A stretch of 56,086 bases of DNA from a virus. Position 1 is the stretch's first letter. Each line of letters opens with the position of its first letter. The DNA is taken from IMG/VR virus record IMGVR_UViG_3300010396_000051, positions 1 through 56,086 of that record; one strand, 5' to 3'. The notes below the pieces were generated by a model that saw only the letters and a program-made list of their open reading frames with translations, was not told the DNA's origin and ran no database searches. Below are positions 1,770 through 45,517 of this stretch, one piece after another. A program made the translations under genes and the position numbers.

Positions 1770-1784
1770 CTGCCAACTTGACAA
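1770..1784. promoter_or_regulatory. Motif A operator, copy A1
   Basis: CTGCCAACTTGACAA, an imperfect palindrome matching TTGYCAASTTGRCAA at 14 of 15. It lies between the divergent fibre gene and the glycosyltransferase cassette, 2 bp before ATG 1787, so a bound protein would block transcription or initiation of the cassette. On the minus strand it reads TAATTGTCAAGTTGGCAG, the same 18 bases as copy A3. Confidence 0.7.
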
Positions 1785-1786
1785 TT

Positions 1787-2932
1787 ATGAGACGAAAGAT
1801 TCTGTTTCTCAGCGATTCCGTATCCTCGACATCGGGGTTGGGTCGCATTGCCCGCGATCTTGCCTTGCGAGTCCACAAGCACCTTGGAGACGTGTACGAG
1901 GTAGCAACAGTGGGCTATGGAGGGCCGGGGTCCACTTCAATTCCCTTCACTGAATTTCACGTCCACGACATCAAGAACTGGCTCGTTCCCGAGCTACCCG
2001 GCATATGGAATGACTTCGTAGGTCAGGACGAAGGGATTCTGTTCTCCATATGGGACTTGAGCCGTCTCTACTGGCTTGGCATTCCGCAACTCTGCCCGGT
2101 TCCTTTCCTTCGCCAGTGGGTCGAGACAGCGAAGATGAAGAAGTACGTGTACCATGCGATCGACGCAGAGGGTCCGAATGGGAAACTGAGTACGCGCATT
2201 GCGGAGACCATGAAGGGCTTTGACCGGGTACTCGACTACTCGGCCTTTTCCTGCCGGATTACCGGGAATGAAGAGTACCTACCTCATGGGATTGACCGAA
2301 CAGTGTTCTATCCCCGCGATCATGCCCAGGCGCGTCAGAGTTTCATCGAGAAGGGATTTCAGGGACTCACCCCGGATTCGCTCCTCATCGGGATCGTGGC
2401 TACCAACCAGGCGCGGAAGAACTGGCAGCTTGGGATGGAGACAGCCCGCATACTCCTAGACCGCGGCCATGATGTGCGCGTATGGGCTCACACGGACGTT
2501 CTGGACCGTTACTGGTCAATGGGGAACCTCATCTCCGACTACGGGCTTGTCGGGCGCGTGGCGATGACTCTGGACCGCTTTACGGACGATCAGATGGCGT
2601 GGATGTACTCCGCGTGCGACGTCACCCTTGGAATCGCCCCCGAGGGCTTTGGATTTCCTCTGGCTGAGTCCTTGGCCTGCGGAGTGCCGTGCATCGCGGG
2701 AAGCTACGGAGCGCAGGCCGAGTTCGTTCCGAAGCCGATGCAGGTTGATCCCATCGGCTACTTCTACGAGGGAGCCTACTGCTCGAAGCGTCCTGTCCAT
2801 GAACCTGCAAAGTGGGCTCTCCGGGTTGAGATGGTGCTGGAAAAGAAGTATCAGGGGAACATGCTGCCGCCGTCTGTGGATTGGGAGACACTTTGGGGAG
2901 CGTGGGAATCGTGGTTCAGGGAGGGTCTATGA
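1787..2932 (+). CDS. Glycosyltransferase, GT-B fold (GT4-like)
   Basis: A 381-residue GT-B glycosyltransferase. The N-terminal domain begins with a beta strand and glycine-rich turn (ILFLSDSVSSTSGLGR). The C-terminal nucleotide-sugar domain has the GT4-type motif EGFGFPLAE followed by SLACGVPCI. It would transfer a sugar from an activated donor to a cell-surface or phage-component acceptor in the cytoplasm. ATG 1787 is chosen; an in-frame TTG at 1778 lies inside operator A1 and is less likely. No clear ribosome-binding site is seen. First gene of a cassette whose members overlap by 4 nt (ATGA), so it is cotranslated with the sugar and methyl transferases downstream. Donor and acceptor cannot be told from sequence. 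Confidence 0.85.
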   Translation: MRRKILFLSDSVSSTSGLGRIARDLALRVHKHLGDVYEVATVGYGGPGSTSIPFTEFHVHDIKNWLVPELPGIWNDFVGQDEGILFSIWDLSRLYWLGIPQLCPVPFLRQWVETAKMKKYVYHAIDAEGPNGKLSTRIAETMKGFDRVLDYSAFSCRITGNEEYLPHGIDRTVFYPRDHAQARQSFIEKGFQGLTPDSLLIGIVATNQARKNWQLGMETARILLDRGHDVRVWAHTDVLDRYWSMGNLISDYGLVGRVAMTLDRFTDDQMAWMYSACDVTLGIAPEGFGFPLAESLACGVPCIAGSYGAQAEFVPKPMQVDPIGYFYEGAYCSKRPVHEPAKWALRVEMVLEKKYQGNMLPPSVDWETLWGAWESWFREGL

Positions 2933-3141
2933 GTGAACGTGACTGTATTTCTTGCAAACGATTTCTATCCAACAAGGAAGCGCACACGATTGTGTGGAAA
3001 GTGGGCGGGGAGAGCCGATTTACCGATAGTTTCTATATCTCCTATCCGGCCCAAACCGATGGACCCGTCATCTGTGAAACCTGTATCCCATCCCAAATTC
3101 AGCGTTACCTTACGACAGTCAAAGAGAGGTTTTCGTTTTGA
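2929..3141 (+). CDS. Small CxxC protein of the glycosyltransferase cassette
   Basis: 70 residues, no family recognised. Two cysteine pairs (CISC near residue 6 and CETC near 49) could bind one zinc ion. It starts at ATG 2929, overlapping the upstream stop in ATGA, so it is translationally coupled to the GT4 gene. Function unknown; its position suggests an accessory role in the cassette. Confidence 0.75.
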   Translation: MSERDCISCKRFLSNKEAHTIVWKVGGESRFTDSFYISYPAQTDGPVICETCIPSQIQRYLTTVKERFSF

Positions 3142-3824
3142 AGCATCTGAACATGGACTACTGCATCGCCACTGTCTTCCAGCCGAAGTGGAAGGACTGT
3201 ATCAAGACTTGGTGGCTCACAGAAACCGCAGAGCACCCCATGAGGCTCGCTCAGAACATGGGCGTGGTGGATGCCTACCAGTGGTGCTTCGAGAGGTCCG
3301 ATGCTGACGTGCTGGCGTTCCTGCACGACGACGTAATCATCTCCGAGTTCGGATGGGATAAGCGCGTTCTGAAGGAGTTTGAAGATCCCACCGTGGGACT
3401 CGTCGGATTCTTCGGTGCCAAGGCTCACGGCGATCCCGAGATGTACAAGAAGCCCTACCAACTCTCTCAGCTTGGCCGCTCCGGGTGCCTGTCGAACATG
3501 GTAGACGCGGAGCACCATGGACAGCGGTTCACCGGAGAAACCGATGTGGCAGTCCTTGACGCCTTTTCGATGTTCGTTCGGCGCGAGGTGCTGGAGAAGG
3601 CGGGAGGATGGCCGGTCAACACGCCGGTTGATTACATATCGCCGGATTATTGGATTTCCTGCATGACACGCAGGTTGGGTTACAGGATTCGCGTGGTCGG
3701 GGTTGCCTGCCAGCACTTGAGTGGAGGATCAAATGGACGCAACGTCAAGCCCATCGACTTCGAGGGAGCGCACCGCTACATCTACGAAACCTTTAAAGAT
3801 TGCCTGCCAGCGAGGGTTCCATGA
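3138..3824 (+). CDS. Glycosyltransferase, GT-A fold (GT2-like)
   Basis: 228 residues. The central FLHDDVIIS carries a DxD-like acidic motif expected to bind the metal and nucleotide sugar, followed by strand and loop features typical of GT2-like phage glycosyltransferases (VGLVGFFGAKAHGD; a late YWISCMTRRLGYR helix). The start is probably TTG 3138, overlapping the previous stop and 8 nt after GAGAGG; ATG 3153 is the alternative. It overlaps the next gene by 4 nt. Likely adds a sugar to a surface glycan with its neighbours (inference). Confidence 0.75.
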   Translation: MKHLNMDYCIATVFQPKWKDCIKTWWLTETAEHPMRLAQNMGVVDAYQWCFERSDADVLAFLHDDVIISEFGWDKRVLKEFEDPTVGLVGFFGAKAHGDPEMYKKPYQLSQLGRSGCLSNMVDAEHHGQRFTGETDVAVLDAFSMFVRREVLEKAGGWPVNTPVDYISPDYWISCMTRRLGYRIRVVGVACQHLSGGSNGRNVKPIDFEGAHRYIYETFKDCLPARVP

Positions 3825-4516
3825 TCGTTAATTTTGTAATGCTTTTTCACGGAAGGCCGACCCTGCTAAAGCAGAGCCTTGAGTCGATCGGAGACACGTC
3901 AGGCATTATTTTCACGCTGCACGGAGAAGACCCTCAGCCTGAAGCATTGACAGTCGCTCGCGATTTCATGAGGGAAAACGACGGCTGTCTCAGCGCAACA
4001 GGCGAGAACCGAGGTACAGGGTTAGCGCGGAATGCTGCTATCGACATAGCCTCAAGTGTTCGCGGCGACTTCCTTTACCTGTCAGATGATGACGTGTTCT
4101 TTCTCCGTCCTGATTGGCTCGCAGTGCTGACGCAAATGTTTGAAGAAGTCGAGCAGTACGGATTCGCCGCTCTTGGAGCTTATAACCATCCCTATAATGG
4201 CCCGGTGACGATATTTCCTCCTGTCATCGACAACAAGTACATGGTTGGCGAGGTCTACGCGCTTGCTACTCAGTCCATGCTTCTCCGGTGGGAGACGTTC
4301 TACCGCTTCGGGCCTTTCTGCCAAACGCCGCCAGGGAGGGTCTGCCAGTCGGAGGATGTGGAGTTCAGCAACAAAATCCGTGCTGCCGGCCTGAAGGTGG
4401 GAACCATGATTCCGCCACTGCTGGCGAACACGGGCATCACGAACAGCTGTGGAGACAAGATACCGGGATGGGAGTTGGTTAAGTCTCAATGCCCTGAAGG
4501 AGTAATCTGCGAATGA
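3821..4516 (+). CDS. Glycosyltransferase, GT-A fold (GT2-like)
   Basis: 231 residues. It opens with a strand (IVNFVMLFHGRP) and has NRGTGLARNAAI followed by LYLSDDDVFF, the nucleotide-sugar-binding arrangement of GT2 enzymes with an acidic DDD metal site. A later SEDVEFSNKIRAAG resembles the catalytic ED-containing segment of the family. It starts at ATG 3821 in an ATGA overlap. It sits between another GT2-like enzyme and two methyltransferases, so it probably builds or decorates the same glycan. Confidence 0.8.
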   Translation: MIVNFVMLFHGRPTLLKQSLESIGDTSGIIFTLHGEDPQPEALTVARDFMRENDGCLSATGENRGTGLARNAAIDIASSVRGDFLYLSDDDVFFLRPDWLAVLTQMFEEVEQYGFAALGAYNHPYNGPVTIFPPVIDNKYMVGEVYALATQSMLLRWETFYRFGPFCQTPPGRVCQSEDVEFSNKIRAAGLKVGTMIPPLLANTGITNSCGDKIPGWELVKSQCPEGVICE

Positions 4517-6399: not shown

Positions 6400-6586
6400 G
6401 AAGCGGGTCCAGTTGTCCTTCCAGCGTCCCGAGGATGTGGCGCTGTTCAAGTATCTGGAGCCGCTTGCTTACAAGGCGAGACTCGGATTGCCCGACTTCA
6501 TCCTCGAATCGTTGCAACAGGCTTTTCAGGGGCAGTTCGCCGTATCTGAAACAGATGAGGCAAGTCCCCCGGTGTCGCCGGAGTAG
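6377..6586 (+). CDS. Small protein, unknown (RHH-like appearance)
   Basis: 69 residues from ATG 6377, 7 nt after GAGAGG. It starts with a basic strand (RVQLSFQRPEDVALFKYL) and a helix (LGLPDFILESLQQAFQG), loosely like ribbon-helix-helix DNA-binding proteins, but no family is assigned. It overlaps the previous gene by 23 nt. Its 3' end overlaps the convergent minus-strand gene by 89 nt. Confidence 0.55.
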   Translation: MARLKPGEKRVQLSFQRPEDVALFKYLEPLAYKARLGLPDFILESLQQAFQGQFAVSETDEASPPVSPE

Positions 6587-7451
6587 CTGAGAAGCAAACC
6601 GGTTGAAAAGGACAGGCTGCTCTTCCCATCTCATCGCAACTTGACCGCCGCATTGGTTCATCTGCCGATGCGGTTTCCATTCGATAAACCAACCGCTCCA
6701 TGTCGCTTCGCGCCTGCCTCATACGCTCATCTTCGGCGTTGAATTGGATCTTGCGCGTTACGATCAACTCGCCCAGAAGGTCATCATTCTCCATTTGCTT
6801 GAGCCACACGTCAGCCGAGTAGTTCGACTGCTCTCTCCAGACCGTCTTCCAGTTCTCCGTGAATCCTGAGTCCTTCTTTCGAGGAGCGAATCTGAGATTC
6901 TTCTGGATGGGATGCTGATATCCCTTCGCCCACGCCGAGTGCCGTCTTCCTCCCCGCTGCGCTCCGATCAGGACCACAAGCAGCGACATCGGCCGCTCCA
7001 GTGCAGCCAGTTCCCCGATGGTTCCCCATGAGTGCGCGTAGGATCGGAGAGTGTCGTCGTCCATGTGCGATGCCAGGATCACCCGGTAGAGCGTGCCGCG
7101 TGCCTCAAAGAGATTCGACTTCCACTCATGCTCCCCAAGCTTGGTCGGAGCCACACGCTCCATCAGTCCAAATTTGGACCGGAGAGCCAGCCCGATCACT
7201 TCGGCCATCGACTGAACATGTCGGACGACTGAGATAGAGCTAAGATCACCCGAAATTACGTCCACATGAGCCGCAAGGTGCTCGATGGAGGTCTGGGAAC
7301 CTACCACGGGGTCAGAATGCGTCAGCGAGCCCTCTACGCCAGCGTAAAGCAATCCCAGAGGGGATATGGTCCAGTGCTGGTAGTCCCGTTCGAAAGCGAA
7401 GCGCCGGGGGCAGCGGTCGAACACGTCAAGGAGTCGTGCGGTCAGGTTCAT
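6498..7451 (-). CDS. Cys-rich protein resembling RecB/Cas4-type nucleases
   Basis: 317 residues. Cys14 lies in FDRCPRRFAFERDY, and Cys272, Cys280 and Cys286 form a C-terminal cluster (C-x7-C-x5-C). One N-terminal and three C-terminal cysteines enclosing the chain is the layout of the Fe-S-bound PD-(D/E)XK nucleases of the Cas4/AddB type, but I cannot point to a convincing D-ExK active site, so this is only a structural hint. It is the last gene of the virion operon, overlapping the upstream gene by 26 nt. Motif B copy 7166-7179 lies inside it. Confidence 0.6.
   Translation of the reverse strand: MNLTARLLDVFDRCPRRFAFERDYQHWTISPLGLLYAGVEGSLTHSDPVVGSQTSIEHLAAHVDVISGDLSSISVVRHVQSMAEVIGLALRSKFGLMERVAPTKLGEHEWKSNLFEARGTLYRVILASHMDDDTLRSYAHSWGTIGELAALERPMSLLVVLIGAQRGGRRHSAWAKGYQHPIQKNLRFAPRKKDSGFTENWKTVWREQSNYSADVWLKQMENDDLLGELIVTRKIQFNAEDERMRQARSDMERLVYRMETASADEPMRRSSCDEMGRAACPFQPVCFSATPATPGDLPHLFQIRRTAPEKPVATIRG
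7166..7179. promoter_or_regulatory. Motif B palindrome, copy B1
   Basis: GTCCAAATTTGGAC, a perfect 14-bp palindrome inside the coding region of the Cys-rich protein. Being intragenic argues against a simple promoter operator at this copy. Confidence 0.5.
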
Positions 7452-22069: not shown

Positions 22070-22084
22070 TTGCCAACTTGACAG
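22070..22084. promoter_or_regulatory. Motif A operator, copy A2
   Basis: TTGCCAACTTGACAG, flanked by AATTG as in the other copies, ending one base before the stop codon of the 22085-22336 gene and upstream of the capsid-operon promoter. A half-site (AAGTTGGC) lies at 22025-22032. Confidence 0.7.
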
Positions 22085-22336
22085 CTAGAGGTAGCGTTTT
22101 TCAGGCAACTTCTCCTCGACTTCGATCTCCGATTGTTTGATGCGTTCTGTCTCTACAAATTCGAGATGTGAGATCGATCCGCCAGGCCCAAACTGTGCTC
22201 GCATGGTGCCCACGCGCTTGTCGCTGTGAAGGTCGTCAAAGAGTTCCAAGAGAAGTTCGCGGCCACCATCGTTGCATTTGTGCTCCGACGTCACATTGGT
22301 CGTGTGCTGAGCGATTGTTACCGTCTTTGTGATCAT
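22085..22336 (-). CDS. Small protein, unknown
   Basis: 83 residues from ATG 22336 behind GGAGAAAG. Mixed alpha/beta, acidic and basic (VTIAQHTTNVTSEHK; RELLLELFDDLH). No family recognised. Motif B copy 22348-22361 directly abuts its ribosome-binding site. Confidence 0.6.
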   Translation of the reverse strand: MITKTVTIAQHTTNVTSEHKCNDGGRELLLELFDDLHSDKRVGTMRAQFGPGGSISHLEFVETERIKQSEIEVEEKLPEKRYL

Positions 22337-28774: not shown

Positions 28775-29244
28775 GCGGTAACCTCTTCCTTCCCTACAGG
28801 GATCGCTGTCGGGACCATCGTCACCTCCGGCTCACCGCCGTGGACGTGACCGCCCTTGACTTTGTTCTTCGGCACCCTGCCGGAACGCTTAACCCACTTC
28901 TCGACGTTGTTTCCCTGTTCGTCCTGCGTGAGCACGGGAGTGGGCATGTCGCTCTCTTCGCGCACCTGGTTGGGAGGACGTACCGGAATCTCCACCGTTT
29001 CCTCCACGGTCGCCGTCTGGCTCACCACGGAGCCCTCAGGAGCGGTGTCGAGTTCGACGGTCTGCTCGATCGCCGGAATGAAGCTGGCAGCCGGGTAGTA
29101 TTCAAGAGTGACTCTGGCCCTGTAGCCGGGGTAGGCCATGTGAGGCTGGAACCTGCCGTTCATGCGCCACTTTTTGCGGAGTTCGAACAGGATCGACTCC
29201 AGAGCTTCCGGGCCGGACAGTTGCTTGGGAAGGGATACTTCCAT
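28771..29244 (-). CDS. Phage protein of unknown function
   Basis: 157 residues from ATG 29244, which follows a strong GAGGAGAA ribosome-binding site. It starts with a helix (GPEALESILFELRKKW), then strands and a Pro/Val-rich region, then a basic stretch (KWVKRSGRVPKNKVKGG). Its first 143 nt overlap the XRE gene in another frame. Confidence 0.65.
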   Translation of the reverse strand: MEVSLPKQLSGPEALESILFELRKKWRMNGRFQPHMAYPGYRARVTLEYYPAASFIPAIEQTVELDTAPEGSVVSQTATVEETVEIPVRPPNQVREESDMPTPVLTQDEQGNNVEKWVKRSGRVPKNKVKGGHVHGGEPEVTMVPTAIPVGKEEVTA

Positions 29245-29470
29245 TGGGATTCTCCTCAAAGACTTTTTCGACGTTGTTCCAGTACTGGATCTTCATTGCG
29301 TAGAGGTTCAGGAGCTTTTGGAGGGTGTTGGTCTGCGCCTTGCGAGTGCCTCGCTCCAGATAGCAGAGCGTGGCTTCTGAGATTCCGGTGAGCTTGAGGA
29401 CTTCGGCCTGAGTCAGCCTGGATCTCTTCCTCAACGACCGAAGGCGCTCTCCTGAGTAATCGTGAATCAT
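29102..29470 (-). CDS. XRE-family helix-turn-helix regulator
   Basis: 122 residues. Residues 5-60 are an XRE helix-turn-helix (ERLRSLRKRSRLTQAEVLKL; recognition part SEATLCYLERGTRKAQ). The last 48 or so residues overlap the next gene in another frame and look like out-of-frame reading, so the real product may be shorter than annotated or the site may be frameshifted. Operator A3 lies 27 bp upstream, which fits autoregulation. Candidate lysogeny repressor or antirepressor; which role is unknown. Confidence 0.75.
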   Translation of the reverse strand: MIHDYSGERLRSLRKRSRLTQAEVLKLTGISEATLCYLERGTRKAQTNTLQKLLNLYAMKIQYWNNVEKVFEENPNGSIPSQATVRPGSSGVDPVRTPQKVAHERQVPASHGLPRLQGQSHS

Positions 29471-29496: not shown

Positions 29497-29511
29497 TTGT
29501 CAAGTTGGCAG
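29497..29511. promoter_or_regulatory. Motif A operator, copy A3
   Basis: TTGTCAAGTTGGCAG, 27 bp upstream of the XRE regulator ATG. The flanked form TAATTGTCAAGTTGGCAG is the same sequence as the reverse of A1. Confidence 0.75.
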
Positions 29512-29519: not shown

Positions 29520-29935
29520 AGAAACACCAAACCCCCACCGGGCGGTGAGGGTCAGTGCGTGGGACTTTGTCAGGAGTGACCACGGGTGCCGGGCAACTGG
29601 CTAATTGACACCTTACCTCATTTGATGCATTATTGCAATTGTCAGGTTGTGACTTTGGAAAAACTCTCGAACAATTCGACTTGTTTATCCCCGTCAAACC
29701 GGATACGTGTATCCGTGCAAGGGGAATAGTCACCCCAAGCTGATCCGGCAGCCCTGCGCGTGGTGCGCGTGGTCCTGGTCGATAGGGCACAGACTTCTGC
29801 GGGAGCCTGCGTAAGTGGACCTTTGCACCCGTTGATGGGACCCATACTGACGGACGGCGTACCCCTGATGCGAAAGGATTTGTGCCCTGCCTTTCGTGTC
29901 TCCCACCTAACCCCGGCGTAGTCTTTAGAAGGGAT
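29520..29935. other. Gene-poor, hairpin-rich spacer, possible structured RNA
   Basis: No convincing gene. Perfect or near-perfect hairpins follow one another: CGGATAC/GTATCCG (29700-29715), GGGG/CCCC (29721-29736), GCTG/CAGC (29739-29752), and CGAAAGG/CCTTTCG (29871-29896). A degenerate motif A-like site lies at 29639-29653. It leads into the PAPS-reductase-like gene, so an upstream regulatory RNA is possible. A minus-strand frame of 67 codons (29642-29845) is the coding alternative; its composition and lack of start context make it weak. Confidence 0.4.
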
Positions 29936-29939
29936 CTCA

Positions 29940-30716
29940 ATGGAAACTAAGAGGGAAAATAGGATAGTCTGCCAATTCTCATGCGGTGCAGCATCGGCGG
30001 TGGCGACGAAGTTAACTCTGGCTCATTACGGCCATGAGAACGTCATCATCGTTAATGCTTTCCTGAAGGAAGAAGACTCCGACAATCGACGTTTCGCTGC
30101 TGACTGTGAGAAGTGGTTCGACCATCCCATCACAACCCTGCGTGACGAGAAGTACGGAGCATCGGCCCGTGAGGTATGGACGCGGGTTCGGTTCATTAAG
30201 GGGCCACACGGAGCTCCATGCTCTCTCAAGCTGAAGCGTGAACTGCTTGCGGAGATTGCGCAGGATGGCGACATTAACATTCTGGGATTCACTGCCGAGG
30301 AGTGGGACCGTCTCGAAGACTTTAGAGAGAACTTCCCATCAAAGAACGCGCAGTCTCCGCTAGTGGAAAAGGGGCTCACGAAAGCGGACTGCCTTTCGAT
30401 GGTCGAACGCGCAGGGATTGAACTTCCGCACATGTATCGACTTGGGTATCAGAATACCAACTGTATCGGCTGCCCTAAGGGTGGTCAGAACTACTGGATG
30501 AATATTCGTGAAGACTTCCCGCAGGATTTCGTGCAAATCAAGGCGATTCAGGAAGACATCGGAGAGGGAGCGTACTTCCTCCAGTTCCGCAGCGGTCCCC
30601 GTAAGGGTGAGCGCATGAGCCTTTCCGATCTTCCTCCTGGACGTGGGAACATGGCACTGGACCCGAACTTCTCATGCTCGTTTTACTGCGAACTGGCAGA
30701 GCGAGAATACCGATAG
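29940..30716 (+). CDS. PAPS reductase-like/PP-loop ATPase family protein
   Basis: 258 residues. FSCGAASA (13-20) is the PP-loop that binds ATP alpha/beta phosphates in the PAPS reductase/N-type ATPase superfamily. GAPCSLKLKR (Cys94) and a late cysteine set (Cys175, Cys178, Cys246, Cys250) could hold zinc or an iron-sulfur cluster, as in DndC-like and thiolation enzymes. Phage members are widespread; proposed roles are sulfur metabolism or modification of nucleic acid, unproven here. ATG 29940 follows AAGGGA. No dnd partner genes are present. Confidence 0.8.
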   Translation: METKRENRIVCQFSCGAASAVATKLTLAHYGHENVIIVNAFLKEEDSDNRRFAADCEKWFDHPITTLRDEKYGASAREVWTRVRFIKGPHGAPCSLKLKRELLAEIAQDGDINILGFTAEEWDRLEDFRENFPSKNAQSPLVEKGLTKADCLSMVERAGIELPHMYRLGYQNTNCIGCPKGGQNYWMNIREDFPQDFVQIKAIQEDIGEGAYFLQFRSGPRKGERMSLSDLPPGRGNMALDPNFSCSFYCELAEREYR

Positions 30717-30721
30717 AATCG

Positions 30722-30735
30722 GTCCAAATTCGGAC
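30722..30735. promoter_or_regulatory. Motif B palindrome, copy B3
   Basis: GTCCAAATTCGGAC, 5 bp after the stop of the PAPS-reductase-like gene and 38 bp before the small membrane protein. No T-run follows it, so not a terminator. Confidence 0.55.
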
Positions 30736-30773
30736 CAGTAGCTATCCTGCATCCAAGTCCTGAGAGGTGACAA

Positions 30774-30950
30774 ATGCCGCTTGGGATACTTTTTTGGGTG
30801 ATCTACGTGGTAGCCATCATCTTTGGCGTGTGGTCGAACTACGAACCTGCTCAACCGGCGTGGTTCCGGCGAGCGGGAGCTTACCTGGTTCTCTGGATCC
30901 TAGTGGGGATTATGGGATGGGAAGTGTTTGGACCTGTCGTGAGAAGGTGA
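30774..30950 (+). CDS. Small two-helix membrane protein
   Basis: 58 residues from ATG 30774 (GAGAGGTGACAA upstream). Two hydrophobic segments (GILFWVIYVVAIIFGVW and GAYLVLWILVGIMGWEVF) are joined by a polar turn, with a basic end. Small phage membrane proteins opening MPLG..FW are common and of unknown role; a holin-like activity cannot be excluded. Confidence 0.75.
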   Translation: MPLGILFWVIYVVAIIFGVWSNYEPAQPAWFRRAGAYLVLWILVGIMGWEVFGPVVRR

Positions 30951-31181: not shown

Positions 31182-31715
31182 TTACTTCTCTCCGATCGAC
31201 AGCGTGAACGTCACAGGGACCGTGGCCGCGATGCTCCCTGAACACGCCGACGGAATCGGGGAGATGGTGACTGCCAGGGACGCCGTGACGGTCTGCGGAG
31301 TCGAGGATGTGTTCGACGTTACAGAGGCCGATGCTGAGAGGTTGAAGGTGGTAGCGGTGTCCGAGGCCGGCACGGTGACCGTGAAGGTGTTGCCGGAGGT
31401 GTCAGAGGTGTCATGGGCGATTGTGACGTTGGTATCGTCAGCGGTGAGGGTTTGGGCGCTCAGTACCGGCGTCGAGTTGTCTGACGCGGTGGCTGAAAGA
31501 AAGAAGGTTCCCGATGAACCTGCGGTGATGGCTGGCATTGTTTTTACGCTCCAGAATTCTGATTTATTTCCATCGCCCCACTCCACAACAGTGCATTCCT
31601 TCTGTTGGATGCGAAGCGTAAATCTTGGTTCGAGTTTACGTCGAATCTGGCGCAACTCGTGCAAAATGTCACGCAAAATCTCGTCAGTGGTTCCCAGGAA
31701 TAGATCGTGACTCAT
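31182..31715 (-). CDS. Ig-like domain protein
   Basis: 177 residues from ATG 31715 behind GAGGAAAC. N-terminal 50 residues are helical and charged (TDEILRDILHELRQIRRKLE), ending in a short strand region. Residues 85-177 are Thr/Ser/Val-rich beta strands of an Ig-like or bacterial repeat type (FTVTVPASDTATTFNLSASA). There is no signal peptide, so it may be a virion accessory protein that sticks to surfaces or carbohydrates, like the Ig domains of other phage capsids and tails (inference). Confidence 0.65.
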   Translation of the reverse strand: MSHDLFLGTTDEILRDILHELRQIRRKLEPRFTLRIQQKECTVVEWGDGNKSEFWSVKTMPAITAGSSGTFFLSATASDNSTPVLSAQTLTADDTNVTIAHDTSDTSGNTFTVTVPASDTATTFNLSASASVTSNTSSTPQTVTASLAVTISPIPSACSGSIAATVPVTFTLSIGEK

Positions 31716-32442: not shown

Positions 32443-32793
32443 TTACAGCCCTTCACTCTGACTTCCAGTTTCCGTGCCTGGTTCGGTTGGAGTGTCTGGG
32501 GAGCCTGCAATAAACGAATTCTCCCAACTCTCCTGAGTATTCCCGGTATCCGCAAGTGTCCTCGGGTCCACCCACCTCTGTACCGGAAGCGGAACCGCCT
32601 CCAGCATCTCCACGAACTTCCGTCTTCGCGGAGTGGTTATCACGTACCCCGGCTTTCCCGGCCAGTCCTGAACCAGACCGGAGTTCTCCAATGCCCTGTA
32701 TGCTCTCTCGTGCAATATCCGCCCTTGACCGTGTGCCACCATCAGGCACTCGATCGTCAACGGGCACGGCCAATACTCCTCCGGTAACGGCAT
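32443..32793 (-). CDS. Winged-helix-like protein, unknown
   Basis: 116 residues from ATG 32793, after a strong GGAGGTGGAGCG site. A helical core with LVQDWPGKPGYVITTPRRRKF, loosely like a winged helix, and an acidic/Thr-rich tail. It lies almost wholly inside the frame of the zinc-ribbon gene. No family assigned. Confidence 0.55.
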   Translation of the reverse strand: MPLPEEYWPCPLTIECLMVAHGQGRILHERAYRALENSGLVQDWPGKPGYVITTPRRRKFVEMLEAVPLPVQRWVDPRTLADTGNTQESWENSFIAGSPDTPTEPGTETGSQSEGL

Positions 32794-32893
32794 CGCTCCA
32801 CCTCCGACTCTTACAGGATGGGCACTCCTTCGGCCGCACATGCGCCTGCTTCTGACGCCACTCATACCCACATCGGCCACACTTGAGTTCCAT
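32453..32893 (-). CDS. Zinc-ribbon protein
   Basis: 146 codons open; only the first 40 residues look like a domain: CGRCGYEW and CPSCKSRRW, a four-cysteine zinc ribbon. The rest is overlapped by the 32443-32793 gene in another frame. Related zinc-ribbon phage proteins are usually 40-60 residues, so the tail may be incidental. ATG 32893 lies 7 nt after a -10, so the mRNA is probably leaderless. Confidence 0.65.
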   Translation of the reverse strand: MELKCGRCGYEWRQKQAHVRPKECPSCKSRRWSDAVTGGVLAVPVDDRVPDGGTRSRADIARESIQGIGELRSGSGLAGKAGVRDNHSAKTEVRGDAGGGSASGTEVGGPEDTCGYREYSGELGEFVYCRLPRHSNRTRHGNWKSE

Positions 32894-32900: not shown

Positions 32901-32938
32901 ATTATGATGATTATGATTATGAATTGTCAAGTTGGCAA
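32901..32938 (-). promoter_or_regulatory. Promoter with overlapping operator A4
   Basis: Minus strand TTGACA (32925-32930), 18 bp, CATAAT (32901-32906), then 7 nt to ATG 32893. Motif A (TTGTCAAGTTGGCAA, 32924-32938) covers the -35 box, so a bound repressor would shut the promoter. Confidence 0.75.
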
Positions 32939-33129: not shown

Positions 33130-33390
33130 CTACTCGCCAATTGCCGGCCAATCCTGCGCGGATCGACTGCGCATTGACACCAGGATGGCCACGGGACGCG
33201 ATATAACCCGCGTTCCTGCGATCCATTGGCTCACAAGCGGCACAGATACCCCCAAGTCGGCCGCGATAGCTCCTAGCGGCTCCCCGTTGGCATGACGACC
33301 ACGAATATAGGCAAGGGGACCGACGGCAGAAACGTGCTCAACATCGTGACTCACGTTTGCAGTGTAAACCCGCTGTCTAATTGCCAACAT
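33130..33390 (-). CDS. Helix-turn-helix regulator (Cro/XRE-like)
   Basis: Up to 86 residues. GAIAADLGVSVPLVSQWIAG is a clear helix-turn-helix. The start is either ATG 33390, inside operator A5, or GTG 33354. Divergent from a ribbon-helix-helix gene with operator A5 between them, the arrangement of lysis-lysogeny switches. Likely one of the proteins that reads motif A (inference). Confidence 0.7.
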   Translation of the reverse strand: MLAIRQRVYTANVSHDVEHVSAVGPLAYIRGRHANGEPLGAIAADLGVSVPLVSQWIAGTRVISRPVAILVSMRSRSAQDWPAIGE

Positions 33391-33395: not shown

Positions 33396-33430
33396 TAGAC
33401 GTGAAGTAACAAAATAATTTGCGTACACTA

Positions 33431-33459
33431 TTGACACGAGTGTTATTCAGTGTCATTAT
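33431..33459 (+). promoter_or_regulatory. Strong promoter of RHH regulator
   Basis: TTGACA (33431-33436), 17 bp, CATTAT (33454-33459), then 7 nt to ATG 33467. Near-consensus sigma70-type. The start codon falls at the predicted transcription start, so leaderless. Confidence 0.8.
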
Positions 33460-34179: not shown

Positions 34180-34223
34180 AATGCAGCCGTGGACGGTGAC
34201 AAGCCCGTGTAAATGCAGAGTCA
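34180..34223 (+). repeat. Intergenic repeat, copy 1
   Basis: 44 bp nearly identical to 34858-34902 (AATGCAGCCG, then GACGGTGAC.AGCCCGTG, then AAATGCAGAGTCA). It is preceded by hairpin CGGCC tgat GGCCG. Both copies lie in gaps before a small gene. Confidence 0.7.
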
Positions 34224-35806: not shown

Positions 35807-36082
35807 ATGAACAATTTTGAATGGGGTTCACGCTGCGCCGAATGCGGCAGAATCATGAAAGGTGGGCGGTCTTACCAATGCCCTAAAGGTGGACAGTGTA
35901 GCTGGCATGTTCCCGCCGCTGCCCGTGAAACGATGAGCGAACTCGTGGATGCTTTAACGTCTTTCACGACGTTGGTGTGTAACATGCGCGACCTCTACAA
36001 CGTTCCCGCCGCCAAATGGTTCGCCGAATCAGAGACGTGGAAGAAGTCCACCAAAGCACTCCAGAAAGCAGGGATTGAATGA
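35807..36082 (+). CDS. Cys-rich small protein, unknown
   Basis: 91 residues from ATG 35807 after AAAGGAA. CAECGRIMKGGRSYQCPKGG supplies four cysteines; a helical remainder follows. Probably one zinc ion. No family recognised. Confidence 0.65.
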   Translation: MNNFEWGSRCAECGRIMKGGRSYQCPKGGQCSWHVPAAARETMSELVDALTSFTTLVCNMRDLYNVPAAKWFAESETWKKSTKALQKAGIE

Positions 36083-36291
36083 ACTCCGCACCGATCACTC
36101 ACGAATGGCTCACGCGAGCGCAAGCCGCGGAGAAGTTGCAAGTCACATCGCGCACGATCGATACCTACATCAAGGATGGAAGGCTGAAGGCTGCGAAGTT
36201 TGGCAAACCAGGTGGACGCGGAAACGTCCGCATCTCTGCCGCGAGTCTCAATGCACTGCTTGAGCCAGAACCTCTCGCACCTCGTCAATAG
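36079..36291 (+). CDS. Excisionase-family helix-turn-helix protein
   Basis: 70 residues. WLTRAQAAEKLQVTSRTIDT then YIKDGRLKAAKFG is the HTH_17/MerR-like pattern of Xis-type proteins. ATGA overlap with the previous gene; its 3' end overlaps the convergent nuclease gene by 44 bp. It could direct excision with the integrase at 42200, although it is not adjacent to it (inference). Confidence 0.75.
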   Translation: MNSAPITHEWLTRAQAAEKLQVTSRTIDTYIKDGRLKAAKFGKPGGRGNVRISAASLNALLEPEPLAPRQ

Positions 36292-38780: not shown

Positions 38781-39186
38781 TCACTTTCCTTATCTCCTCA
38801 ACCACAAACTGTCCTGGCGCCAGAGTCCCTTCGACCTTGACCGGCGTAAAGTCCCCAAAGAACGCATTGAAGAACACATCCCCCCACTCAGCCCTCAACC
38901 CATCCCAGAACGAAGCGCCCAGGGGCATCTCCGCTCCAGCACGGGCGGGTTCAGCAGGCATCGCAATCTTCTTTTTGATTTTCTTTGCGGGAGGTAGCAA
39001 GGCGCGTTCCACGACGGCATGAGCGTGCCACTCCTGATCGTCGTCCATAAATTTCAAGGCATCTACTTCTACGTGGAGTTCCTTTGCCAGCCACTTCCAA
39101 GAGCGGTCTACCGCCTCATGCCGGGAGTAGCCCTTGGCTTCGATGGCCTTGACAACCAAGGGCTCAAGCAATGCGCCAATGTTCAT
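38752..39186 (-). CDS. Protein cotranslated with Sak4-like ATPase, unknown
   Basis: 144 residues. Helical front (VKAIEAKGYSRHEAVDRSWK), a basic Lys run (KKIKKKI), and a C-terminal half with GDFTPVKVEGTL. Overlaps the recombinase by 4 nt, so a partner in recombination is plausible; no motif proves it. Confidence 0.55.
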   Translation of the reverse strand: MNIGALLEPLVVKAIEAKGYSRHEAVDRSWKWLAKELHVEVDALKFMDDDQEWHAHAVVERALLPPAKKIKKKIAMPAEPARAGAEMPLGASFWDGLRAEWGDVFFNAFFGDFTPVKVEGTLAPGQFVVEEIRKVNATALFDCA

Positions 39187-40304
39187 GCGACTGGCTTCCC
39201 GTCTTTGTAGTCTTCGCCGCTAATGTTGAACACGTCGGTAACCTTGACGTACCCCCTCGCATCCACGTCGAACTCGAACAGGCATTTCTGATCGACGCAG
39301 TTCTTCAAAGCATCGAAGAGTTTCGTATCCCAGCAGGAAGCAAACGTAGCCTTACCGACCGGCGTAGGCACTTCGCCGTTCAGGGTCACGTGAATAAACG
39401 GCTTCCCTTTGTTGCTGCTGGTCTTCTCAAAGACCTCGACAGGAATACAACTCAGCCGATCGCCAACGATGGTAAAAAAATCCGAAGCGACTGGCGGCGG
39501 TGCGGGAGCCTGCTTCGCCTCCTCGACAGCAACGGATGCTTCGAGCCTTTGTACTAAGGACGGTCCTGCCACTGGAACTTGCTCGTCTTCTTTGCCCTTC
39601 GACAGCCATCCTGCGATGCTTTCCGCAATCTTCGGGTCTTGGAGGTCGATAGTCTTGTCGTTGAAGAGGCCGGTACGATCCTTCGAGACTTGCCCCATGT
39701 GATTGATGTTCAGGTCGAACACGAGGGTGAATTCGTAGTCGATCTGATCTCGCTGAATCGGAGCAAGGCCCATCTTTACCGGAACCTGCTTGCCCTTGTC
39801 GTTTGTCTGGAGCGCGTATTCCTGCTTCGAGCGCATCGTGGCGATGACGTGGATGGGAGCCTGAAGCATTACTTGCTTGAACGCCTCATGCTCTGGAGTG
39901 AACCGAGCCCAGAGCGTGTACCCGTTGACTCCAGGGTTCCGGCGCTCCATCTCTTCCTTGCGTCGGAGAATGCCGCCCTCACCGTCCCACTGCGCCGTGA
40001 TGGTGTCGATGATGAGCACGTCGTACTTTTCTCTGACTGCCTCATCAATGGCCCACACGTAGCGTTCTGTGGTGAATGGAGGACCGAGCGGGATCGTGTC
40101 GAAGTCGAACTGGTCAGCGTAGAGGCTGGCAGATTCGTTCTCTGTGTCGATCAGGCAAACTTTCGCATCCGGCCAGAGGTTCTTTGCAAGCGACAATGCT
40201 CCCCACGTCTTACCGGACCCAGACGGTCCCTGCACTGCCATCTTCAACTTGACTCTTTTCTTTTCAGCCTTGCGAGGCTTAGGTATAGCGGCAGATGTTG
40301 CCAT
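39183..40304 (-). CDS. Sak4-like RecA-fold recombination ATPase
   Basis: 373 residues. Walker A GPSGSGKT (26-33) and Walker B YDVLIIDT (94-101) within a RecA-like core that matches the phage AAA_24/Sak4 group of single-strand annealing ATPases. A C-terminal strand-rich domain (about 275-373) might be an SSB-like OB domain. It would act on phage DNA during recombination and replication. ATG 40304; operon with the small genes above. Confidence 0.8.
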   Translation of the reverse strand: MATSAAIPKPRKAEKKRVKLKMAVQGPSGSGKTWGALSLAKNLWPDAKVCLIDTENESASLYADQFDFDTIPLGPPFTTERYVWAIDEAVREKYDVLIIDTITAQWDGEGGILRRKEEMERRNPGVNGYTLWARFTPEHEAFKQVMLQAPIHVIATMRSKQEYALQTNDKGKQVPVKMGLAPIQRDQIDYEFTLVFDLNINHMGQVSKDRTGLFNDKTIDLQDPKIAESIAGWLSKGKEDEQVPVAGPSLVQRLEASVAVEEAKQAPAPPPVASDFFTIVGDRLSCIPVEVFEKTSSNKGKPFIHVTLNGEVPTPVGKATFASCWDTKLFDALKNCVDQKCLFEFDVDARGYVKVTDVFNISGEDYKDGKPVA

Positions 40305-41086: not shown

Positions 41087-41105
41087 TGGAAGTGATTCGG
41101 AGATG

Positions 41106-41134: not shown

Positions 41135-41149
41135 GACCGAATTTATCGT

Positions 41150-41178: not shown

Positions 41179-41188
41179 TGCAGCCATT

Positions 41189-41335
41189 ATGGGTGCATTG
41201 AAAAGCATAAAATGCGCGAAAGGCCACCCGATGAGAGGTAAAAACCTCTACATCCGAGCCAATGGTACGCGGGAGTGTAAAGCCTGCTCTTTGGCGCGGA
41301 ATCGGAAGTGGCGCAAAAGGAGACTTGCGGCATGA
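41189..41335 (+). CDS. Small zinc-finger protein
   Basis: 48 residues. CAKGHPM and CKACSLARNRKW form a Cys/His knuckle with a basic end (RKWRKRRLAA). No ribosome-binding site; probably leaderless. Common phage type, function unknown. Confidence 0.65.
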   Translation: MGALKSIKCAKGHPMRGKNLYIRANGTRECKACSLARNRKWRKRRLAA

Positions 41336-41745: not shown

Positions 41746-41760
41746 TTGCCAACTTGGCAT
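41746..41760. promoter_or_regulatory. Motif A operator, copy A7
   Basis: TTGCCAACTTGGCAT, between co-directional genes and overlapping ATG 41759. Its location inside an operon, rather than at a promoter, recalls stoperator sites that block elongation. Confidence 0.7.
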
Positions 41761-42004: not shown

Positions 42005-42203
42005 CTACCCGAGAGTTCTTGAGCGCGACAGGAACGGCAGGGAAACGCTGTGGGAGTGCTCTGATTGCGGAAAGCCCTTCACGAAGGGATGGGGATCGCG
42101 CTGTAACGCCTGTATCCTTGCCGCCGAGCGCCATGCTGAACTGATTGCCGCAGTGAAGGCTTTCAGGGATGGGGAAGAGTTTCATGGAGAGGGACGCTCA
42201 TGA
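41997..42203 (+). CDS. Small zinc-ribbon protein
   Basis: 68 residues. CSDCGKPFTKGWGSRCNAC is a four-cysteine ribbon, followed by a helix. ATG 41997 overlaps the previous stop by 8 nt; its stop overlaps the integrase ATG. Unknown function. Confidence 0.65.
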   Translation: MSNYPRVLERDRNGRETLWECSDCGKPFTKGWGSRCNACILAAERHAELIAAVKAFRDGEEFHGEGRS

Positions 42204-43387
42204 ACGATCTGTCGAGACGTCGTTACCAGAGAGGATCGCTATCGAAAGATGGCTCCCGGTGGCGTGCAAGGTGGAGAGAGGATGTAATCGTCCCCGCTGG
42301 CATCCCTCCCCTCAAGGGGGACAAGCCACTCGGGAACGGAACCATCCTTCGCCGCGTCTCCCGCAACCGGGAGATAGGCTCGCTCAAAGAGTTCCCCACC
42401 AAACGGCTTGCTGAGCGGGAACTGGAGCGCATCCTTCAGGACATCAACCGGGAGGATTACAAGCCTGTCGTCTCCTCCACCTTCGAGTCATTCGCGGAGA
42501 AGTGGCAGAAGAACGTCATGGTTCACCACAAGCCCTCTACACAGCACGGAGAGCGGTCGGTGATCCAGAACCATCTCCTGCCTGCCTTCGGCCGCATGTC
42601 GTGGCGGGAAATCACGGCTGAGTGCCTTCAGGCGTGGGTGTCCAGACAGACTGACGCTCCCAACTCCGTCCGCAACCGCATCACGACGCTACGCGAGATG
42701 TGGGTATCAGCGAAGGCGTGGGGGTACACGACGCTGAATCCTTTCGAGGGACTGAAGCAGCCGAGCGTGGTCAAGGGTCATTCCTACTTCTTCTCCATCG
42801 AAGAGTCGCTGGCGATCCTGAATGAGTTGACCGGATGGCAGCACACCCTTGTGCGGATTCTCGTAGAGACGGGAATGCGACCTGGCGAAGCTGCCGGCCT
42901 GCGGACTCAGGACTTGGTTGGACGAGTGCTCAAAGTCTCGCAGTCAGTGTTTAATGGGAAGATCCAGACGCCGAAGACCACGAACGCTGTGCGGGAGTTC
43001 GCCATCTCTACCGAGCTTGCCGAGGAGATTGAACGGCTCACGCCGCGGAATGGCTTGCTGTTCACCACGTCCACCGGCCGTCCTATCTGCATGAAGAACT
43101 TCCTGAAGTGGACGCTCGATCCCGTACTCGACAAGTTGGGCATCAAGGCTAAGGCGAAGGCGATGGGATTGAAGTGCGGTTCCTACGCTTTCCGGCATGG
43201 CAACGTGACGGAGATGCGGCGCCGGGGAGTTCCGCTGAAGACGATTCAGAAGCGCGTTGGGCATTCAGCAGGGAGCGGAATCACAGACGAGTTCTACACT
43301 CACGCCGTCGATGCGGATGATATGGCAGCGGCGGATATGTGGGGAGAGTTGTTGAGGCCAACGGCAGAGGGAGAACCAATTCAGTGA
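42200..43387 (+). CDS. int: Tyrosine-type integrase
   Basis: 395 residues. Arm/core-binding domains lie in 1-190, the catalytic domain after that: Arg227 (ETGMRPGEAAGL), Lys259 (TPKT), Arg332 in YAFRH (Tyr329 at the usual first His), His355 (RVGHS) and nucleophile Tyr366 (EFYTHA). It recombines phage and host attachment sites. ATGA overlap with the upstream gene. Clear evidence of a temperate life style. Confidence 0.93.
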   Translation: MNDLSRRRYQRGSLSKDGSRWRARWREDVIVPAGIPPLKGDKPLGNGTILRRVSRNREIGSLKEFPTKRLAERELERILQDINREDYKPVVSSTFESFAEKWQKNVMVHHKPSTQHGERSVIQNHLLPAFGRMSWREITAECLQAWVSRQTDAPNSVRNRITTLREMWVSAKAWGYTTLNPFEGLKQPSVVKGHSYFFSIEESLAILNELTGWQHTLVRILVETGMRPGEAAGLRTQDLVGRVLKVSQSVFNGKIQTPKTTNAVREFAISTELAEEIERLTPRNGLLFTTSTGRPICMKNFLKWTLDPVLDKLGIKAKAKAMGLKCGSYAFRHGNVTEMRRRGVPLKTIQKRVGHSAGSGITDEFYTHAVDADDMAAADMWGELLRPTAEGEPIQ

Positions 43388-43943: not shown

Positions 43944-44241
43944 AACTTTGTACCACCAGATGTACCAAAATCCTGATGTCTCGTGGCAATGGATCGGAAG
44001 TCTAATATAATCTATAACTTACTTACGCTTCAAATTCACATTCTAGGCCTCAGTCACTCATCGTCTTTACAGACTCTAAACGACTTAACCTAATTGACAC
44101 GCCCAAACCTACCCTTTCTTTGTACCGCACCTGAACCATTGCCTAACTAGTTGCAGCAGAGCACAGTGGGAAAATTGACATGACAAGACTCCCCGAAAGT
44201 GTCGTTCCCGGTTGCGTCATGGGATGTGTCGCAATGGTCAT
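43944..44241. other. AT-rich spacer, candidate attP region
   Basis: 298 bp with no supported gene. It has TATAAT (44006-44011) with GTGGCA 17 bp upstream, and TTTGTACC twice (near 43949 and 44121). Its place downstream of the integrase operon makes it a candidate for the phage attachment site. A 34-codon plus-strand frame (44180-44284) exists but is unsupported. Confidence 0.35.
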
Positions 44242-45090
44242 TCAGTTTGCCGCCATGCTAGATGCTATATGGAGTGTGTGGTAGAGCCACCATGCGCCCA
44301 GCGGACTTGCTCCGATCGCCAGAATGACCGCAGCCTTGCCGAGCCTGTTCTTCTTGGGTTTGGGTCCACGGCGAGTCACAAAGCCCTCTGGGATGTCCTG
44401 CCGGCCAGTGTGAACCGATCCTGGGATGGCACGGGCCTGCATGACGTACCCCACGCCGGTCTGGAGCCATTCCCTGAGTTGTTCGGTGTTTCTGATCTTG
44501 GCTTGCTTCATAATGCGGAGAGTGGTGTTGAACCAGATGCGGAGAGCGAGATTCTTTTCAAGTGGTTCCGGCTTTGACTTCGACGTTCTTTCCTGACGTC
44601 TCTCCCTCAGCTTTGGTCTGATCTTCTTTTCGATGAACCCTTCAATCACCTTCGGGTCTTTGGTCTTCGGTATCTCAGACTTGAGCGCCGAGAACGCTCC
44701 GATGAGTTCCTTCATTCCTCCCCCGGCCGCACCGCGGAGCAGCATGGCGCCCTTCTCTGCCAGCGTCTTTGTGATCTGTTCCGAGTTCTCTTTGGGCAGG
44801 ATGGCCAGAAACTCTCTGAAATCGGCCTTGCGTCTCCATGCCGTCCTAAAGCCTTGCTTGAATACGGTCTGGGTGTAGTCGGTGATGTTCATTGGCTCCC
44901 CTTCTAGCTCCCTGTCTGCGTTTTCGAGCTCCACACACTGTCCTACGACTCCCAGCCCTTCCATGCTTTGAAACTGGAGCAGCCGCGAAGTGATCTCCAG
45001 CATCCGGTCCTGCTTCTCCCGACTCAATTCGTTCCAACCCGGAGTGTTCGGTAGCTCCGGAGAAAACGCTACAATCGACTTCTCTTTCAT
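44242..45090 (-). CDS. C-terminally anchored membrane protein, unknown
   Basis: 282 residues from ATG 45090 after GGAGGG. Soluble helical N-terminus and a central basic region (RERRQERTSKSKPEPLEK); residues about 255-275 (AAVILAIGASPLGAWWLY) form one membrane helix near the C-terminus, flanked by KPKKNR. Alone on the minus strand between plus-strand units, which is typical of a moron gene expressed in the lysogen. Function unknown. Confidence 0.65.
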   Translation of the reverse strand: MKEKSIVAFSPELPNTPGWNELSREKQDRMLEITSRLLQFQSMEGLGVVGQCVELENADRELEGEPMNITDYTQTVFKQGFRTAWRRKADFREFLAILPKENSEQITKTLAEKGAMLLRGAAGGGMKELIGAFSALKSEIPKTKDPKVIEGFIEKKIRPKLRERRQERTSKSKPEPLEKNLALRIWFNTTLRIMKQAKIRNTEQLREWLQTGVGYVMQARAIPGSVHTGRQDIPEGFVTRRGPKPKKNRLGKAAVILAIGASPLGAWWLYHTLHIASSMAAN

Positions 45091-45224
45091 TACAGCCAAC
45101 CCTCCCTTTCGTTATCAACCACAAGTAAGAAAGATATTGCCACTTTTGCCACTGTAGTTGCAATACCTAAATTGGGTACTTTTGCGAAAGTTGGTAAATT
45201 TGTTAAAAATTCCGTGTTCGTCAA

Positions 45225-45253
45225 TTGACATACGAAAGTGGCGGGAGCAGAAT
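45225..45253 (+). promoter_or_regulatory. Promoter of 45299 operon
   Basis: TTGACA (45225-45230), 17 bp, CAGAAT (45248-45253). Start near 45260, leader about 40 nt to GTG 45299 with an AAGGAA site. Confidence 0.65.
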
Positions 45254-45298
45254 ACCCGTAGCAAATCCCCCGATACGGGCCAGAAAGGAATCGCGCCA

Positions 45299-45502
45299 GT
45301 GAAAGCTAAACCAGTGGCGGTTCAAAAATCTTCCTCAGTACGACTCACCCCAACCCAGTACGACAAACTCCACCAGCTTTCAGTGGCGACCAACAGCAGC
45401 ATCAATAAATGGGCGCAGAAGTGGGTCCAAAACGGGATCGACGACGAGTGGCAGGCCCGGATGGATGCAGCGGCAAAACTGGATAAAGCCCTGCGGTCGT
45501 AA
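45299..45502 (+). CDS. Ribbon-helix-helix-like protein
   Basis: 67 residues from GTG 45299, 8 nt after AAGGAA. SSVRLTPTQYDKLHQLSVA then NSSINKWAQKWVQNGI resembles the ribbon and helices of CopG/HicB-like DNA-binding proteins. Preceded by a promoter, followed by operators A8 and B6. Confidence 0.6.
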   Translation: MKAKPVAVQKSSSVRLTPTQYDKLHQLSVATNSSINKWAQKWVQNGIDDEWQARMDAAAKLDKALRS

Positions 45503-45517
45503 TTGCCAAGTTGGCAA
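45503..45517. promoter_or_regulatory. Motif A operator, copy A8
   Basis: TTGCCAAGTTGGCAA, the only perfect palindrome of the family, 3 bp before motif B copy B6. It lies between two co-directional genes. Confidence 0.8.

Follow-up and report, generated by a model that had tools for sequence, protein, structure and literature searches.

Why should one 15-bp palindrome recur eight times in a viral contig of 56,086 bases, each time outside the genes, and what might bind it? The contig, IMG/VR record IMGVR_UViG_3300010396_000051 (analyzed at full length and called the window below), had received an initial annotation in which these palindromes, here termed motif A, were proposed to be operators of a phage repressor. 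All eight copies reported there were found: three (32924, 41072, and 45503) fit the pattern TTGYCAASTTGRCAA exactly, and the remaining five depart from it at one position (Table 1). They are probably operators of a single phage-encoded dimeric regulator, most likely the lysogeny repressor. Motif A is palindromic, as a dimeric regulator needs, which supports this reading; further support comes from the ∼10-bit gap between the eight sites and any other place in the genome, from their position outside genes in all eight cases, from their presence at or within many gene units, and from the integrase that the phage encodes.

Recurrence of motif A compared with chance

Allowing one mismatch to TTGYCAASTTGRCAA, we counted 8 places in the window, compared with a mean of 0.01 and a maximum of 1 in 300 trinucleotide-preserving resamplings; the reversed pattern had no place in the window at ≤2 mismatches. 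With up to three mismatches the test is weak (9 places against a mean of 3.77, a count of 9 being reached in 3 of 100 shuffles), and this modest excess is what speaks for chance as the origin of the set. Since TTGYCAASTTGRCAA was fitted to these eight sites, tests that do not start from the pattern weigh more. When the genome was scanned with a symmetric weight matrix, as the initial annotation had proposed, the eight sites scored 21.4 to 25.2 bits and the next best place 11.2 bits; with leave-one-out matrices, every held-out site remained within the genome's top 8 places. When recurring inverted repeats were sought without a preset pattern (7-bp arms, spacer of 0 to 8), motif A came first, with 9 places (the eight copies and a weak one at 22687 inside a gene), whereas the largest set in each of 12 resamplings of the window had 4 or 5. 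Together with the gene placement described below, these counts refute chance, which we regard as a vanishingly improbable explanation.

Second in the pattern-free search was another palindrome, motif B (about GGTCCAAATTYGGACC), with 7 places against a null maximum of 5. A narrower blind search for near-perfect palindromes of 14 to 17 bp recovered clusters in the window comprising four of the eight motif A copies and six copies of motif B; it found no clusters in 3 resamplings per setting, nor in 13 of 15 IMG/VR records related to the window via terminase, XRE, or head protein (some of them distant, some fragments). This last result is too strong, as a looser 12-mer search showed a repeated palindrome in two of these records, G006 and G009. 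The looser search gave 8 copies of motif A against null maxima of 5 to 7, and was set aside as evidence. In a maximum-copy test over all 15-mers, motifs A and B reached 18 and 17 against null maxima of 12 to 15 in 22 resamplings, but the test counts a palindrome twice at shifted registers and is therefore not taken as a probability.

The arms and center of motif A are all conserved, and several arms read TTGGCA or TTGCCA. TAATT stands to the left of the copies at 29497, 33381, 41072, 41746, and 45503 and to the right of that at 1770, bearing out for six of eight copies the flank ascribed to most of them; the left flank is CAATT at 22070 and GAATT at 32924. The claim that seven of eight copies share one orientation holds for the AATT flank on the plus strand but not for the core asymmetry (positions 4 and 12), which is plus in four copies, minus in two, and absent in two. 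Neither flank nor core orientation tracks gene strand. An RNA hairpin was dropped by eye as a reading of motif A: in copies that combine C at position 4 with A at position 12, the pair is broken in the transcribed strand. Spelled-out forms of motif A had no occurrence in the literature searched.

Table 1. Motif A sites, candidate regulators, and other features (window coordinates, except the last row, which refers to PP887698)
Feature	Position	Strand	Context
Motif A, CTGCCAACTTGACAA	1770-1784		2 bp before ATG (1787) of a glycosyltransferase-led operon; outside genes
Motif A, TTGCCAACTTGACAG	22070-22084		Abuts stop codon of minus-strand gene 22085-22336, within structural operon
Motif A, TTGTCAAGTTGGCAG	29497-29511		26 bp before ATG of XRE gene heading structural operon
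Motif A, TTGTCAAGTTGGCAA	32924-32938		Over predicted −35 box (TTGACA-18-CATAAT) of minus-strand gene 32453-32893
Motif A, TTGCCAACATGACAA, lowest score	33381-33395		26 bp before GTG of XRE-like gene 33130-33354
Motif A, TTGCCAAGTTGACAA	41072-41086		Between predicted minus-strand promoter and ATG 41051 of first gene of replication/recombination operon
Motif A, TTGCCAACTTGGCAT	41746-41760		Fills gap from TAA stop to next ATG (41759), integrase operon
Motif A, TTGCCAAGTTGGCAA, perfect palindrome	45503-45517		Abuts TAA of probable ribbon-helix-helix gene 45299-45502
XRE/Cro-like helix-turn-helix protein, 74 amino acids	33130-33354	−	Preferred candidate repressor
XRE-family protein, 122 amino acids	29102-29470	−	HTH_31 8e-10 (above cut-off); first gene of structural operon; second candidate
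Ribbon-helix-helix protein, 44 amino acids	33467-33601	+	First gene of rightward early operon; Cro-like position
Probable ribbon-helix-helix protein, 67 amino acids	45299-45502	+	Directly before motif A and motif B copies; RHH_3 0.088, weak; sequence judged by eye
Excisionase-like HTH_17 protein	36079-36291		Pfam match
Tyrosine integrase	42200-43387	+	Marks the phage as temperate
Motif B, 7 clear copies	7165, 22347, 30721, 32296, 38000, 45520, 47108		Partial copy at 46454
Source record IMGVR_UViG_3300010396_000051	1-56,086		IMG/VR virus contig, 56,086 bases
Tunturi_1 palindrome copies	3568, 9301, 23625, 24364, 32845, 33039, 37653, 40698, 52830, 53731, 55458, 62511

Placement relative to genes and promoters

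The gene calls, partly completed by hand, make 92% of the genome coding. All eight motif A copies lie outside called genes, compared with 6.9% of 15-bp windows (binomial ∼5e-10, approximate since the gene list is partly hand-completed), and one extends 2 bp into the next start codon. The sites are thus between genes or at gene starts, as originally described, rather than at equal density in coding sequence. They head, or lie in, units for structure, replication, integration, and glycosyl transfer, as judged by eye. Dispersed palindromes can also be centromere-like or packaging signals, and motif B lies partly inside genes; a role in replication, partition, or packaging instead of transcription nevertheless seems very unlikely for motif A, which stands strictly at operon heads and gene junctions genome-wide, and no partition protein was among the proteins scanned, which are part of the proteome.

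A scan for σ70-like consensus promoters between 28000 and 47500 gave 18 places where 9.6 were expected, single matches being weak evidence. The two best (11 of 12 positions each) were TTGACA-17-TATAGT at 41134-41106 and TTGACA-18-CATAAT at 32930-32901. The latter confirms the −35 overlap noted for site 32924, which is the only clear case; site 33381 has a weaker one (ATGACA-18-AATAAT), and the remaining six sites have no −10 with 5 or 6 matches at 16 to 18 bp in any of four possible −35 readings each. The hexamer-like arms raise the question of whether the copies are by-products of strong −35 boxes (TTGACA and its complement). The arms do resemble TTGACA, and AATTGACA is itself enriched (8 in the window against 1.19 expected, with a maximum of 4 in 300 resamplings), as either a preferred −35 context or motif A half sites. 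However, a good −10 at the right distance accompanies only 32924 and, weakly, 33381, several arms depart from the hexamer, and both arms and center are conserved, making this origin highly improbable.

Sites 32924 and 41072 lie 30 and 20 bp before their leftward start codons. Two sites had been placed just below promoters: for 41072 this agrees with the promoter predicted at 41134-41106, relative to which the site falls at roughly +13 to +27, whereas for 1770 it depends on an extended −10, TGGTATGAT, at 1749-1757 just above the site, which was read by eye and not reported by the scan. Sites 22070, 41746, and 45503 each abut a stop codon within an operon. Site 33381 sits between the XRE-like gene 33130-33354 and a divergent early operon, downstream of the presumed start for the leftward helix-turn-helix (HTH) gene; at 33427-33459, two promoter-like places of opposite direction, one rightward and one leftward, overlap head-on and are accompanied by inverted TGACAC/GTGTCA repeats. 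Repressor regions are commonly laid out in this way, with an HTH gene reading leftward, an early operon reading rightward, and opposed, overlapping promoter-like places between them, and the position of 33381 within such a layout favors reading motif A as the operators of a repressor. The overlapping pair might form a bistable switch, with the HTH gene on one side and the ribbon-helix-helix gene on the other.

Six of eight sites thus follow a presumed promoter or separate two genes of an operon, the promoters being predictions. We read this geometry as placing most copies to hinder promoter escape or elongation rather than to mask a promoter. The same geometry bears on the idea that the binder activates or times the lytic cycle instead of maintaining lysogeny, a part that one of the ribbon-helix-helix proteins could play: late as well as early units are served, and ribbon-helix-helix proteins adjoin sites 33381 and 45503, but six of eight sites do not occupy the usual upstream place of an activator, and we consider this idea unlikely.

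The phage, other genomes, and other palindromes

Because the first and last 123 bases of the contig are identical (1-123 = 55964-56086), it is a circularly closed genome of ∼55,963 bp, and because it encodes a tyrosine integrase, the phage is temperate. It also encodes a terminase large subunit, a major head protein, a weak portal match, a lysozyme, and a Sak4-like recombination ATPase. The only named phages with a match (28.8% identity) to its head protein are the Tunturiibacter phages Tunturi_1 and Tunturi_2, and the same two are best among 36 records for the terminase (27.8% identity). Passages of PMC11924767 describe their host, Tunturiibacter, as an acidobacterium; since these nearest named relatives infect it, the host of our phage likely also belongs to the Acidobacteriota. 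Closer relatives are found among IMG/VR records (terminase, 62-63%; head protein, 70-85% in nine records). No relatives of the integrase or of the recombination ATPase (39183-40304) were found in viral contigs, the head-protein alignment gave no match against genome contigs, and Rfam gave nothing in the window at the gathering threshold. Elsewhere in the window, a leftward gene with a signal-like start near 1672 seems, by eye, to cross the junction into 53268-55964; an exact 29-bp repeat lies at 31228-31256 and 52485-52513, 21 kb apart; a 32-bp repeat (94% identical) lies at 34192 and 34871; a terminator-like hairpin (29530-29553) lies upstream of the XRE gene; and ∼300 bp (29640-29939) without a called gene or an Rfam match precede a PAPS reductase-like gene (29940-30716).

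In viral contigs, exact-pattern DNA scans hit 36 and 14 stretches, and copies were counted in 35 and 9 further records. Only two records stand out by copy number, the others holding one to three copies: G040 (IMGVR 3300050821_001994, 67.8 kb) and G018 (3300021559_000019, 40 kb, 5 copies), the flanks of the latter being identical to those of G040 and thus marking it as a piece of the same virus. G040 contains 8 copies within ≤1 mismatch of motif A (0.05 expected) and ten palindromes within 2 mismatches, mostly TTGTCAASTTGACAA; the pattern-free search found 17 places there with arms TTTGTCA and spacer 3 (null, 5), 10 of them outside genes. Unlike most window sites, 8 of the ten palindromes within 2 mismatches sit on promoter-like −35 boxes, and of the 10 TTGACA-17-(at least 4 of 6 TATAAT) places in G040, 8 coincide with such palindromes; three of the ten palindromes are wholly inside called genes. 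No G040 protein is similar to those of the window at 1e-4, and ten G040 proteins searched against Pfam included RecA, a primase-helicase, SSB, an Acb2-like protein, six without a match, and no regulator. We read G040 as a second phage with a scattered set of putative operators that match motif A in symmetry and nearly so in their arms, and the occurrence of this kind of palindrome in an unrelated phage supports the operator reading of motif A. The likeness may reflect either a related regulator too diverged to see or convergence, which is conceivable because a repressor half site that is also a −35 hexamer gives arms like TTGACAA; G040 therefore provides an independent comparison for the combination of palindrome and −35 box. 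Near the operator-promoter at 54555, G040 has a gene (L093:14161-14532) for a probable anti-defense sponge, its product containing an Acb2/Tad1 hairpin domain (1.6e-06).

Some phages use host operators, and a host regulator might accordingly bind motif A. Scanning genome contigs with TAATTGYCAASTTGRCA, we obtained at least 118 stretches, two of them in one Enterococcus assembly. The best 80 of 118 have one match each, and among the at least 118 listed stretches no title names an acidobacterium, which makes a host regulator decidedly unlikely.

Dispersed palindromes of other sequence recur in related phages. TGCRATATYGCA, at ≤1 mismatch, occurs 9 times in G006, 4 in G007, 3 in G008, and 10 in G009 (null means <0.4, maxima 1 to 2), often flanked by TAG/CTA; none of the other 12 records tested has more than one copy. 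The pattern-free search exceeded its null in G006 (9 versus 5), G009 (7 versus 4), and Tunturi_1 (12 versus 5); G004 yielded tandem repeats, G008 (4 versus 0) and G005 (6 versus 5) were marginal, and the remaining 8 records did not exceed their null. The 12 copies in Tunturi_1 (PP887698) are of a 14-bp palindrome, GTCCAAT-ATTGGAC, with arms like those of motif B, and 9 lie inside annotated genes. G040 carries a second palindrome as well (arms GTACGGA, spacer 1; 12 places versus a null maximum of 5; 5 of 12 outside genes). Motif B itself is similar to the operator recognized by Mnt, the ribbon-helix-helix repressor of phage P22; its copy at 45520 starts 2 bp beyond the motif A copy at 45503 and comes just after the ribbon-helix-helix gene 45299-45502. 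Insertion of motif B as an element was considered as well, but the copy in gene 6498-7451 is no insertion, because the homologue in G001 can be aligned across it gap-free. No apparently related paper was found in the literature for spelled forms of the motif B type. These phages thus repeatedly carry dispersed palindromes whose sequence changes from set to set, among which motif A is the set with operator-like placement; the recurrence supports motif A as a real binding site, and the palindromes of relatives fit an exchange of specificity without proving it.

Candidate binders and comparison with known dispersed operators

The proteins scanned include five small DNA-binding candidates. Our preferred binder is the product of 33130-33354, a plausible though tentative assignment that we rate somewhat short of even; the XRE protein, the ribbon-helix-helix proteins, and others would share the remaining probability. 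We prefer it because its gene occupies a repressor-like position with a site in front of it, and because 33130-33390 has no convincing homologue in G001, G002, G010, and Tunturi_1, which lack the motif; none was found in G040 either. Its best fold match is DdrO (probability, 0.92; E, 0.28). The ribbon-helix-helix protein 33467-33601 matches FitA-like_RHH in Pfam below the cut-off (0.0013), its model has a mean predicted local distance difference test score (pLDDT) of 83.0, and its fold matches are ribbon-helix-helix proteins (probability, 0.99; E, 0.22).

The initial annotation named these two proteins and the XRE protein 29102-29470 as possible binders; operators of a phage regulator are still the best reading of the sites, with the XRE protein now a less likely member of that list. 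That protein would control itself through 29497 and other units in trans. An HTH family match above the cut-off speaks for it, as does a good site located 26 bp upstream of the gene's start codon. Among G040, G001, G002, G010, and Tunturi_1, only G001 and G002 have orthologues, near the terminase, so that the gene looks like part of a structural cassette. The G001 orthologue has an identical recognition helix (SEATLCYLERG), whereas the G002 helix differs at several positions, leaving G001 as the only fair test. G001 has one place at ≤2 mismatches of motif A and, at 3 mismatches, 3 places versus 5 in the reversed control. Because G001 keeps the helix yet lacks the motif set, and assuming that the same helix reads the same bases, we consider the XRE protein doubtful as the binder.

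Under the preferred reading, a repressor dimer would bind the odd-centered palindrome TTGYCAA-S-TTGRCAA and so shut down each prophage unit separately. Bound at 32924, it would mask the −35 box. Three sites (1770, 41072, and 33381, the last with respect to the leftward gene) would place it shortly after the presumed start, in the way of promoter escape or early elongation. At 22070, 41746, and 45503 it would lie between operon genes, where it could serve as a roadblock or hide an internal promoter. The 33130-33354 product, as the likely binder, would control itself through the weakest copy, 33381. Of this picture, the sites with their non-random number, symmetry, and position between genes are observed, whereas protein binding, repression, the promoter positions, and the identity of the binder are inferred.

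Several observations weigh against this reading. Few sites overlap a recognizable promoter, so repression through most of them is assumed, and the units 44242-45090 and 29940-30950 lack a clear motif A copy. The expectation that relatives would carry the same sites was not borne out: at ≤2 mismatches G001 and G006 have one place each, 13 of 15 records have none, and Tunturi_1 has none. As for the preferred binder, its Pfam matches (HTH_23, 0.0074; HTH_3, 0.029) are below the cut-off, its single-sequence model of four helices has a moderate mean pLDDT of 65.5, no relatives of 33130-33390 were found in viral contigs, and matches of 33130-33354 to named phages are weak (best E, 0.1 over half its length); it has a single domain, with no second one, and its own site is the weakest copy. 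Finally, 4 of 7 motif B copies lie outside genes, and the palindromes of G006 (4 of 9 outside genes), G009 (8 of 10), and Tunturi_1 (3 of 12) are less strictly intergenic than motif A, a warning that not every dispersed palindrome in these phages has to be an operator and that those of the motif B kind may serve otherwise.

More speculatively, and with less confidence than for the operator reading itself, motif A may be a symmetric, orientation-independent stoperator, at which a small single-domain XRE-like dimer stops RNA polymerase below promoters and between operon genes throughout the genome of an Acidobacteriota phage. Dispersed palindromes of changing sequence would then be a habit of these soil phages (two sets in the window and in G040, and one each in G006, G009, and Tunturi_1), and G040 would have arrived at, or would share, nearly the same operator, built into −35 boxes. 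A full-text literature search on repressors, operators, and lysogeny of acidobacterial phages found nothing related. L5, BPs, phiC31, and SPbeta are documented cases of silencing through many scattered operators, a strategy that would here extend to a soil phage with acidobacterial kin, for which the eight sites and four candidate binders form a testable set.

The initial annotation likened motif A to the stoperators of mycobacteriophage L5, and this is apt for siting: both have sites at promoters and in short intergenic spaces genome-wide, here including 22070, 41746, and 45503 between operon genes. It fails for symmetry, number, and orientation, since the window has eight near-perfect palindromes oriented independently of transcription. 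The L5 consensus ends in TGTCAAG, which the arm TTGTCAAG resembles; this string was not found in PMC9283540 or PMC6550527. Passages of the same two papers describe L5 and cluster A stoperators as asymmetric 13-mers, >20 in number, whose orientation matches that of transcription and whose binder is a monomer carrying two DNA-binding domains, and a passage of PMC4557955 gives 18 to 30 dispersed repressor sites for L5 and phiC31 together. The L5 repressor family was not named among matches of the scanned regulators; no direct comparison with the L5 protein was made. The likeness to phiC31 lies in many repressor sites dispersed over a phage genome, and these are reportedly inverted repeats.

In BPs, the repressor gp33 is described in passages of PMC4557955 as binding a 12-bp palindromic core in several small intergenic regions and controlling several promoters, its full sites being two half sites 5 or 8 bp apart. 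The resemblance extends to a temperate phage, a palindromic core in several intergenic regions, and a divergent repressor and early gene; the BPs palindrome differs in being even, 12 bp, and of other sequence, and in occupying five intergenic regions versus eight sites here. Among the top 40 matrix matches in the window, only 33381 has a second match close to it (33373), and the two overlap, so the paired half sites of BPs are not seen here, although very degenerate half sites would escape such a search. In SPbeta, as described in passages of PMC10516654, a 15-bp element at many intergenic prophage places is bound by the master repressor MrpR and was found in silico long before its binder was known. 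SPbeta differs in its recombinase-like binder, its sites in promoter regions, and its sequence; the one tyrosine recombinase seen in the window (42200-43387) is taken as the integrase. BPs, the closest in symmetry, and SPbeta are closer parallels than L5, because L5 sites are asymmetric, number >20, and follow transcription, whereas the window sites are palindromic, number eight, and do not. Motif A is thus a convincing further instance of the documented dispersed-operator strategy, with a sequence that differs from those of the known systems.

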